Both the position numbers and the translations under genes were made by a program. Under the pieces are notes generated by a model that made no database searches, had not been told where the DNA came from, and saw nothing but the letters and a program-made list of their open reading frames with translations. Shown here in pieces: positions 62,136 through 63,846 of a stretch of 64,000 bases of DNA (positions are counted from its first letter, which is position 1; each line of letters opens with the position of its first letter). Source of the stretch: Micromonospora inositola (GTDB lineage: Bacteria; Actinomycetota; Actinomycetes; Mycobacteriales; Micromonosporaceae). The stretch is taken from contig NZ_LT607754.1 in assembly GCF_900090285.1 (NCBI RefSeq), positions 124,001 through 188,000 of the forward strand, given 5' to 3'.

Positions 62136-62993
62136 TCAGCTCCCAGGTGTCCGCCCGGTCGCCACCGGGCGGGCCGGGTCGGCCACCCAGTTGCTCCACG
62201 AGCCGACGTAGAGCGCCGCGTCCGGCCGGCCGGCGAGGTGCAGCGCGAGAACGGCCTGGGCGGCGGTCACCCCGGATCCGCAGTACGCCCCGACCGGCGC
62301 GGCGTCGGTCACGCCCGCCGCGGCGAACCGCCGGCGCAGCGCCTCGGCGGCCGGGAAGCGGCCCTCGCCGACGTACTCGGGGGCGGGGAGGTTCACCGCA
62401 CCCGGCACGTGCCCGGCGACCGGATCGATCGGCTCGGTCTCACCCCGGTAGCGCGGCGCGGCGCGCACGTCGAGCAGCACCCCGGGGTCGGCGGCGGCCA
62501 GCCGGGCGGCCTCCCCGGCGTCGAGGACCGGCAGCGCGCCGGGTGCGACGGTGACGTCGCCCGGGGTCGGGGTGGGCGGCTCGGTGGAGGTGGGCAGGCC
62601 GGCGGCCACCCAGGCCGGGAAGCCGCCGTGCAGCAGGCGTACCGGGCGGTGCCCGGCCCAGCGCAGCGTCCACCAGGCGCGGGCGGCGGACATCCCGTCG
62701 CCGCCGTCGTACACCACGACGGGGTGACCGGCGCGGACGCCGGCGGCCCGCAGCGCGGCCTGGAGCGCGGCGGGGTCGGGCAGCGGGTGCCGGCCGGCGG
62801 CGCCGGGCCGGCCGCAGAGCTCGGTGTCCAGGTCGACGAAGACCGCGCCGGGCAGGTGGCCGGCCGCGTAGTCGTCCCGGCCGGGCGGGCCGACGAGCCG
62901 CCAGCGGACGTCGAGCAGGGTGGGCGGGTCGGCGCGGTCGAGCTCGGCGGCGAGCCGGTCGGCCTCGACCAGCAGCTCCTCGGTTCCGGACAT
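62136..62993 (-). CDS. Two-domain sulfurtransferase (rhodanese / 3-mercaptopyruvate type)
   Basis: A 285-residue tandem rhodanese protein. The N-terminal inactive domain has LLDVRWRLVG and HLPGAVFVDLDTELC with HPLPDPAALQAAL. The C-terminal domain has LLDVRAAPRYRGETEPIDP and the active-site loop GAYCGSGVTAAQ, in which CGSGVT is the form found in mercaptopyruvate sulfurtransferases. It would move sulfane sulfur to cyanide or thiols. ATG start. It is followed by acuC after 39 nt on the same strand and is divergent from ideR. Confidence 0.9.
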   Translation of the reverse strand: MSGTEELLVEADRLAAELDRADPPTLLDVRWRLVGPPGRDDYAAGHLPGAVFVDLDTELCGRPGAAGRHPLPDPAALQAALRAAGVRAGHPVVVYDGGDGMSAARAWWTLRWAGHRPVRLLHGGFPAWVAAGLPTSTEPPTPTPGDVTVAPGALPVLDAGEAARLAAADPGVLLDVRAAPRYRGETEPIDPVAGHVPGAVNLPAPEYVGEGRFPAAEALRRRFAAAGVTDAAPVGAYCGSGVTAAQAVLALHLAGRPDAALYVGSWSNWVADPARPVATGRTPGS

Positions 62994-63063: not shown

Positions 63064-63083
63064 TAGCATCGACCACCGGGAGG
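63064..63083 (+). promoter_or_regulatory. Candidate ideR promoter and upstream-ORF ribosome binding site
   Basis: TAGCAT (63064-63069) fits a -10 box. GGGAGG (63078-63083) is a strong Shine-Dalgarno placed 8 nt before the GTG at 63092, so it serves the small upstream ORF and not ideR itself. Confidence 0.5.
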
Positions 63084-63091
63084 CCGCTGAC

Positions 63092-63160
63092 GTGAAGCAT
63101 GACCTGGTCGATACCACCGAGGGTGTAGTTACCTTCGTCGCCAGAAAGGGACGGAAGTGA
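63092..63160 (+). CDS. 22-codon upstream ORF with IdeR-like N-terminus
   Basis: A short ORF beginning GTG and ending TGA encodes VKHDLVDTTE and then GVVTFVARKGRK. Its first ten residues repeat the start of IdeR (VSKHHLVDTTE) and the bases GGTCGATAC-ACCGAG occur in both, 68 nt apart. It has a better ribosome binding site than ideR, and its stop overlaps the ideR GTG by GTGA, so translation of ideR is probably coupled to it. It may be a leader peptide or a relic of a partial duplication. Expression is unproven. Confidence 0.5.
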   Translation: MKHDLVDTTEGVVTFVARKGRK

Positions 63161-63846
63161 GTAAACACCACTTGGTCGATACGACCGAGATGTACCTGCG
63201 CACCATCCTCGAGCTGGAGGAGGAGGGGGTGCCGCCGCTGCGTGCCCGGATCGCGGAGCGGCTGCGGCAGAGCGGTCCCACCGTCAGCCAGACCGTCGCC
63301 CGGATGGAGCGGGACGGCCTGCTCACCGTCGAGGGCGACCGGCACCTGTCGCTCACCGCGCTGGGCCGCGGCAGCGCCGTCTCGGTGATGCGCAAGCACC
63401 GCCTGGCCGAGCTGCTGCTGGTCAACGTGATCGGGATGCCCTACGAGGAGGCCCACGAGGAGGCCTGCCGGTGGGAGCACGTGATGAGCGACGCGGTCGA
63501 GAAGCGGGTCTACGACCTGCTCAACCGGCCGACCCGCTCCCCGTACGGCAACCCGATCCCCGGTCTGGAGGGGCTGGGCAGCCCCGAGCAGCCCGAGACC
63601 GAGGGGTCCGAGGCCGAGCGCAACCTGGCGTTTCCGGGCCTCTCCGGGCCGGTCGTGGTCCGGCGGATCTGCGAGAGCGTGCAGACCGACGCGGACGTGC
63701 TCCGGCAACTGCACGCGGCGGGCGTGGACCCGGGCGCCACGGTGACCGTGGCCCAGGAGCGGGACGGCGTGTCGATCGACCGCTCCGGTGAGCGGATCCG
63801 GCTGCCCCGCGAGGTGGCCTCCCGGGTGTTCGTCGCCGCCCACTGA
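63157..63846 (+). CDS. ideR: Iron-dependent repressor IdeR/DtxR
   Basis: A 229-residue metal-dependent transcription repressor that controls iron uptake and storage genes. The winged helix is in residues 5-60 (LVDTTEMYLRTILELEEEG, then ERLRQSGPTVSQTVARMERD). Metal ligands are visible: M12, C104, E107 and H108 in EACRWEHVMSD, and H81/E85 in RKHRLAELL. A C-terminal SH3-like domain covers 150-229. GTG start with AAAGGG about 6 nt upstream; the upstream ORF overlaps it. The neighbourhood with sigB matches mycobacteria. Confidence 0.94.
   Translation: MSKHHLVDTTEMYLRTILELEEEGVPPLRARIAERLRQSGPTVSQTVARMERDGLLTVEGDRHLSLTALGRGSAVSVMRKHRLAELLLVNVIGMPYEEAHEEACRWEHVMSDAVEKRVYDLLNRPTRSPYGNPIPGLEGLGSPEQPETEGSEAERNLAFPGLSGPVVVRRICESVQTDADVLRQLHAAGVDPGATVTVAQERDGVSIDRSGERIRLPREVASRVFVAAH

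Follow-up and report, generated by a model that had tools for sequence, protein, structure and literature searches.

Site-specific insertion and probable translational coupling of ideR to its own severed start in Micromonospora

Analysis of the ideR locus of Micromonospora inositola, within a 64-kb stretch of DNA (hereafter the window, meaning the whole stretch analysed), points to a gene whose translation is probably coupled to that of its own severed start: the short leader ORF found upstream of ideR is the original start of the gene, parted from the remainder by a site-specific insertion. Comparison with related genomes shows that a foreign insert occupies one site, that it is repeatedly present in some genomes and absent from others, and that the frame of the leader and the contact between its stop and the new start are retained. 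Such a recurrent site-specific replacement of the ideR start, the old one surviving as a probably coupled leader ORF, is real, and we have not found it in print.

The ideR locus of the window and its ancestral start

The gene downstream of the leader (63157–63846, on the forward strand as all features below unless stated otherwise) codes for an actinobacterial protein of the DtxR/IdeR family (NCBIfam NF053665, 321 bits for a cutoff of 290), and its present start is the GTG at 63157. The leader ORF (63092–63160) is read directly from a GTG at 63092 to a TGA at 63158–63160, comprising 22 codons with the product VKHDLVDTTEGVVTFVARKGRK; it is preceded by GGGAGG (63078–63083) with a spacer of 8 nt, and its TGA shares four nucleotides (GTGA) with the start of ideR. 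Two copies of a core, TGGTCGATACCACCGAG at the left junction (63105–63121) and TGGTCGATACGACCGAG at the right junction (63173–63189), are identical at 16 of 17 nt and offset by 68 nt. The 22-codon ORF, the ribosome binding site at 8 nt, the 68-nt repeat offset and the GTGA overlap had all been described in a previous sequence-only reading of this DNA, and direct reading confirms each of them. Repeat pairs equally good and spaced by 20–200 nt occur 306 times per 11.56 million placements in the 64-kb window: by itself the core repeat is only moderately unusual, and its significance comes from the comparison with relatives. To the left, a divergent sseA-like sulfurtransferase gene (62136–62993, reverse strand; NF008557, 3-mercaptopyruvate sulfurtransferase, 153 bits, under the curated cutoff of 250) provides a fixed reference point, and the gap from its start to the core is the measure compared among related loci. 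Upstream of GGGAGG, TAGCAT (63064–63069) is the probable −10 element of the native ideR promoter, a presumed role, GGTANCATCG being conserved in native as well as in leader loci.

An IdeR family search retrieved ideR from 350 of the 354 family genomes, with no match in G240, G260, G101 and G352. Among the first 30 relatives, and likewise among the named Micromonospora loci, the majority start ideR itself after this −10-like motif and this ribosome site, with either GTGAAGCATGACCTGGTCGAT or ATGAAGTCTCACGACCTGGTC. Since native relatives start the gene at the GTG of the leader, behind the same motif and ribosome site, the comparison identifies the upstream start, and not the downstream one, as the ancestral ideR start, the present start being the newcomer. 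GGGAGG, which stands immediately before ideR in native relatives, is then the ancestral ideR ribosome binding site now placed before the leader ORF, and the leader ORF corresponds to the ancestral start and first codons, severed by the insert and ending in GTGA over the new start.

The insert and its hosts

In the window the insert amounts to 68 nt after codon 6 (63110–63177, its exact placement being uncertain within the length of the common core), and is missing from a close native relative (L003 in G193) with both flanks near-identical. The same is observed in 13 aligned leader/native pairs: both flanks align, and the insert alone is without counterpart. The left flank, which differs between hosts, matches the host up to the core, and the right flank is conserved genus-wide, so that host identity on the right is weakly informative and it is the left flank that carries the argument for a foreign insertion. 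From core to core, the 16 inserts measured range from 62 to 74 nt. The one in the window supplies AAAGGG (63145–63150), the probable ribosome binding site of the present ideR (SD2).

Insert identity does not track host distance (r −0.13 in pairs of 23 loci), and very similar inserts are found in distant hosts with different flanks. Indeed, the inserts of L026 and L207 are 93% identical at a tree distance of 0.44, with promoters 75% identical, and those of L007 and L030 are 91% identical at a distance of 0.40, with promoters 79% identical; by comparison, L026 and its nearest leader-bearing host L122 (distance 0.16) have inserts sharing 77%, with 16 gap positions. These resemblances across distant hosts argue that the insert moves, and vertical descent with losses, taken alone, does not yield such an exchange. 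In these two pairs of unrelated hosts (L007/L030, L026/L207) an identical internal insert junction recurs: together with the narrow length class this means that independent random deletions of prophages do not explain the inserts, and it argues that the short unit itself travels.

We have also searched the genomes with a model of the insert (R1), built without L236, L175 and L174, which was the sole means by which the window strain's own genome was searched for the insert. Under strict filters, 21 places in the family genomes have E<1e-14 among the matches listed, all of them at ideR; the window is matched at G000:C1:187101-187189 (window 63101–63189, insert plus both cores) with E 5e-16, its insert being among R1's own sequences. 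A further 12 partial or weaker places that were examined are either at ideR or in unrelated coding DNA, and the weak matches (E≤0.01) seen in 202 of 354 genomes are partial, mostly native ideR starts, and were excluded from the leader counts.

The core repeat could also suggest that the promoter/start region of ideR was duplicated in tandem and later diverged, and the L122 insert does resemble its own upstream region when compared by eye. We consider this very improbable, as it is contradicted by the similar inserts of different hosts, the 91% (L007/L030) and 93% (L026/L207) identities being found in hosts with different upstream regions, and by the fact that at the junctions the insert alone has no counterpart. 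A frozen partial duplication had been among the proposals of the sequence-only reading, which in this respect had the mechanism wrong: the leaderless relatives reveal one foreign insert at one site.

Distribution of the leader

We have read ideR and its upstream region at 160 loci, covering 158 of the 160 Micromonospora-type genomes (the two others, G240 and G260, being those without IdeR match), with G279 read twice and with the addition of G343, a native locus from another genus. Each locus was classed by its distance from the divergent sseA-like gene, apart from L171, whose contig ends before sseA and which was classed by sequence. The 158 genus genomes with ideR divide into 25 with a leader (26 loci), 120 native and 13 with an integrase-type flank. 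The distance from sseA is 112–123 nt in the 121 native loci, with two exceptions at 93 and 133 nt, and 174–193 nt in the 26 leader loci (measured in the 25 with sseA in view); the 13 remaining loci have a different right flank, GTGAGACACT..., which accompanies a serine integrase. The two near-identical ideR loci of G279 (L236 and L204, at C1:7121 and C1:6011373) lie near opposite ends of a 6.04-Mb contig and possibly represent an assembly overlap; L236, the second copy, was excluded from the opening-cost, frame/stop, insert-identity, spacing and fold counts.

On an sseA tree of 145 of the 160 loci (15 without enough sseA were dropped; the tree is of one gene, by a quick method), the leader state needs at least 19 changes, 13 of them forced by starred branches, for a mean of 22.6 after shuffling, with a value as low in 6 of 500 shuffles. 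The leader is thus widely scattered over the tree and only slightly clustered. Gain and loss at a single tip are indistinguishable on the tree, because the native form would reappear if the DNA from one core to the other were deleted.

Outside this genus, leader or native state was judged by eye. Records of Actinoplanes, Paractinoplanes and Symbioplanes fall in the genus g4, as judged from their matching upstream sequence. Of its 67 genomes 60 were searched, 59 gave a match and 57 were read, and 15 leaders were found among these 57. The 30 loci read in 50 genomes of other genera gave no leader. A leader of the same design was seen at L050 (Dactylosporangium siamense): it contains an inverted repeat, ACCACC/GGTGGT, and its stop overlaps what may be an ATT start. 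At three g4 loci (L401, L405 and L406) ideR has another upstream region, which lacks the native promoter and adds codons at the N-terminus, and no integrase was recognised in the roughly 800 nt read.

Conservation of the frame and of the stop-start contact

The position of the leader end relative to the new start, in the 26 Micromonospora loci, is +4 in nine, −2 in seven (two of which are the two copies in G279), −4 in two, and +1 and 0 in one each. In 20 of the 26 loci the stop therefore lies no more than 4 nt to either side of the new start (−4 to +4), and the other six leaders end at +16 (two), +25 (two) or −15, or are fused in frame. The fused one (L186, in G271) has no stop, and its IdeR may also gain an N-terminal extension of around 22 residues from the old start. 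All 15 g4 leaders have their end at +4, where the overlap is ATGA except for one TTGA, and their two starts are 59, 62, 65 or 83 nt apart. A GTGA or ATGA contact is in itself cheap, as any start with an A after it gives one automatically in one of three frames, and loci that are related do not count as independent.

We have considered 40 loci of both genera together, leaving out L050, because of its doubtful non-standard start, and L049, which has the same leader as L310. With lengths varying from 59 to 83 nt, the start-to-start spacing is 3n+2 in 35 of the 40. Internal stops in the leader region number 1 in the leader frame and 8 and 35 in the other two, and a stop within −9 to +6 of the new start occurs in 34 of 40 loci in the leader frame, for 7 and 4 in the others. 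A test by clusters of loci gave 5 of 5 (p 0.004), but it is crude, since 21 of the Micromonospora leaders were put together in one cluster by single linkage. The upstream frame is therefore open across relatives and in most loci its stop overlaps the new start or lies a few nucleotides from it, which are two of the three features of a translationally coupled pair; the third, a dependence of downstream translation on that of the upstream frame, is here a prediction. The sequence-only reading would have taken the leader for a neutral relic had relatives kept this DNA with a broken frame; the check was carried out, and the frame is mostly kept.

A distinct scenario results from the analysis of the encoded peptide. 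Every one of 14 related g4 leaders retains GGAGG and GTG, and the stretch with ribosome site and start is 80% identical, but codons 3–11 are only 55% identical; these drifted first codons suggest that the g4 leaders may be older than the others. In 13 comparable leader pairs (of 15 listed, two being of unequal length, and with three of the 13 among L325, L342 and L394 and so not independent), the differing codons comprise 36 that alter the amino acid and 22 silent ones, with 26/16/28 differences at the three codon positions, which amounts to no excess of silent changes in these pairs. It is the frame that is guarded, and not the peptide.

These results bear on two other explanations. One is that the leader acts as a decoy, which the sequence-only reading had proposed; its peptide would mimic the N-terminus of IdeR and disturb its dimer or its DNA binding. 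In the window and in several other leaders the first ten residues are indeed those of the native IdeR N-terminus. However, descent from the same start explains this likeness, and IdeR-like residues are gone in many g4 leaders that retain the frame; considering also the 36 replacements for 22 silent codons, we find this proposal hardly credible.

The other explanation is that the insert is a neutral scar which gives ideR an independent and sufficient start, the leader ORF being untranslated debris and its frame accidental. The poor conservation of the peptide and the lack of an excess of silent changes agree with it, as does the fact that many Micromonospora leaders have native loci as their sisters and are perhaps young. 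At two g4 loci, L340 (G045) and L391 (G013), an N-terminus of the leader type (KASLHNHDL and KTSLHNHDL) directly follows the old ribosome site: they look leader-deleted, a deletion being probable, and from them the leader seems dispensable. Nevertheless, an accidental frame fits poorly with a 3n+2 spacing maintained at such different lengths, with leader-frame stops near the new start being so much more frequent than those of the other frames, and with g4 leaders holding ribosome site and GTG as their codons drift. We thus regard the neutral scar as a possible but rather unlikely account, and retain translational coupling to the severed start as the probable one.

Folding over the new ribosome binding site

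Between the two cores of the window an inverted repeat (left arm 63122–63142; right arm 63148–63169, which holds part of SD2 and the ideR start) is predicted to bury the ribosome site and start of ideR, with −24 kcal/mol and a z of −4.2, none of 200 shuffles being as stable. The cost of opening SD2 and the start is here 14.7 kcal/mol, against 9.8 when the leader part is shuffled (0 of 200 shuffles). Across 25 Micromonospora leaders the mean fold z is −1.7 with 10 of 25 below −2, for a mean of +0.8 and 0 of 60 below −2 in native control loci (the first 60 of the 121 native loci), and for −0.6 and 2 of 15 in g4 leaders. In the same 25 loci, the opening of SD2 and the start costs on average 13.0 kcal/mol versus 10.9 with the leader part shuffled, exceeding the shuffled mean in 22 of 25. 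The old ribosome site takes 8.8 kcal/mol to open in these loci and 10.3 in the 121 native ones: the native-site cost is thus not far below that of SD2. No consensus pairing inside the insert was found with RNAalifold over the 25 loci, on a MAFFT alignment which is possibly misaligned, and there is no Rfam match at E≤1.

A strong hairpin in the window, a mean z of −1.7 set against +0.8 in native loci and an SD2 cost above the shuffled mean at 22 of 25 loci could all be taken as signs of an attenuator, in which the hairpin hides the ribosome site and translation of the leader sets the ideR output under control of a ligand, of iron or of ribosome stalling. In fact, the fold is below z −2 in a minority of leaders in both Micromonospora (10/25) and g4 (2/15), leader peptides have no recurrent run of codons (by eye, the Micromonospora peptides being read from DNA), an Rfam match is absent at that threshold, and two adjacent attachment-site arms predict an inverted repeat equally well. 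Control of this kind is therefore improbable in our judgement. The sequence-only reading had proposed a translational control device: that part of the claim which concerns coupling is sustained, as frame and stop-start contact are kept in many genomes as coupling expects, but nothing indicates a control that depends on iron or on another signal. The hairpin reads as a birthmark of the insert, able to make coupling useful, and not as a conserved sensor.

Taken with the probable coupling of ideR to its cut-off start, these features would fit the following course of events. A short DNA unit, probably what remains of an element whose integrase has its attachment site at the 5′ end of ideR, would enter the gene site-specifically at around codon 6–7, at the core GGTCGAYAC, so that the native promoter, together with the ribosome site and the opening codons, comes to lie apart from the remaining gene. 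It would bring with it a ribosome site and a start codon of its own, followed by 5–8 codons up to the core, by which an IdeR-like N-terminus is restored. The transcript would still be driven by the native promoter; ribosomes would begin at the old start, translate about 22 codons into the insert, terminate on the new start and re-initiate there, and in doing so would open the hairpin in which the new ribosome site is buried. Of this course we infer that the promoter is used, that the leader is translated, that ribosomes re-initiate, and which agent inserted the unit.

Integrase genes and the inserting agent

In three Micromonospora genomes (G237, G261 and G203) a large serine integrase gene stands beside ideR, at around 110 nt from it and with 1.8–2.1 kb between sseA and ideR; the integrase of L004 (G237) has Resolvase and Recombinase domains, and a zinc-ribbon match just under the curated cutoff. 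In the g4 genome G059 the N-terminal part of an integrase, 67% identical over 138 aa, lies around 370 nt from the core in the 951 nt read. In total ideR adjoins an integrase in four genomes of two genera, not at short-insert loci. All four integrase genes (L004 3–1409, L156 in G261, L178 in G203, and L388 506–949 in G059) are divergent from ideR, and the native ideR promoter is lost there. The GTGAGACACT flank occurs without integrase at 130–162 nt in G244 and G270, and it is retained by 8 genomes (5.1–5.9 Mb) without an integrase at E≤1e-100, the gap from sseA to ideR being 2.2–3.8 kb in 6 of the 7 checked among these 8, namely the 6 with a whole sseA match. At one locus with an integrase-type flank (L259 1–3600, in G297), a LysR-like regulator and two beta-lactamase-like ORFs are seen between sseA and ideR, as judged by eye from the translations.

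The presence of a serine integrase beside ideR in four genomes of two genera makes an integration scar the likeliest origin of the insert, and indicates that elements of the serine-integrase kind use this spot at the ideR 5′ end. Many inserts form inverted repeats, the right arm carrying the ribosome site, the start and the codons that rebuild an IdeR-like N-terminus, which suggests that the short inserts fit left and right attachment-site arms standing side by side. The empty site and both junctions are observed in relatives, with no element body between the junctions. A complete element at the short-insert loci is ruled out, as the 174–193 nt between sseA and ideR in 25 leader loci leave no room for one.

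Neither an intact element nor a free attP bearing the arms of the short inserts was found in viral contigs, phages and family genomes: three patterns for a free attP were unmatched in the viral contigs, and in phages neither of two insert types gave a match that covered 80% of the query. The viral contigs were also searched for proteins related to the L004 integrase, where 5 stretches matched and none was confirmed, and in three Streptomyces phages with integrases 36.7–38.6% identical the ideR-like core was not found by pattern in about 4.4 kb. These negative searches weigh against an integration scar, which is still the likeliest origin of the unit of 62–74 bp. As a more speculative and rather doubtful extension, the insert might be a mobile gene-less "start cassette", made of ribosome site, start codon, a few codons and attachment-site arms, which integrases targeting the ideR 5′ end move whole in trans; IdeR start regions would in that event be exchanged horizontally, with the expelled start surviving as a translationally coupled leader.

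Relation to known systems and implications

Rickettsia palindromic elements are short palindromic units inside coding sequences, dispersed over many genes. The ideR insert is likewise a short palindromic unit within a coding sequence, but unlike them it is confined to one site, one gene and one orientation. A second parallel is the SPbeta prophage, which is of the large-serine-recombinase kind. SPbeta sits inside spsM (PMC4191935); as in that case, an integrase with Resolvase and Recombinase domains adjoins the split gene in some genomes and the junction falls within the coding region, but the ideR insert has 62–74 nt, is geneless at most sites, and attP and excision are not seen here. Termination-reinitiation at ATGA/TGATG overlaps is established (Huber et al. 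2019, PMC6728339). The arrangement at ideR is like the pairs treated there in that the upstream stop overlaps the downstream start (GTGA, ATGA, TGATG) and the ribosome site lies inside the upstream ORF; it differs in that the upstream partner of ideR is the severed front part of ideR itself, produced by insertion, and not a functional gene, and in that coupling is here proposed from sequence. In the open-access literature, which leaves most subscription papers outside its coverage, we found no report of an upstream ORF of ideR with translational coupling; nor did we find there one of the ideR 5′ end as attB of a serine integrase, Micromonospora included.

If true, the present reading shows how a gene may survive the replacement of its start and how upstream ORFs may be born. 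Natural presence/absence pairs, such as L001 of the window and L003, allow the effect of the leader on ideR output to be measured, and the 5′ end of ideR is marked as a likely integrase target. The insert would also account for some of the variety among IdeR N-termini in Micromonosporaceae, a point relevant to the annotation of start codons in this family.
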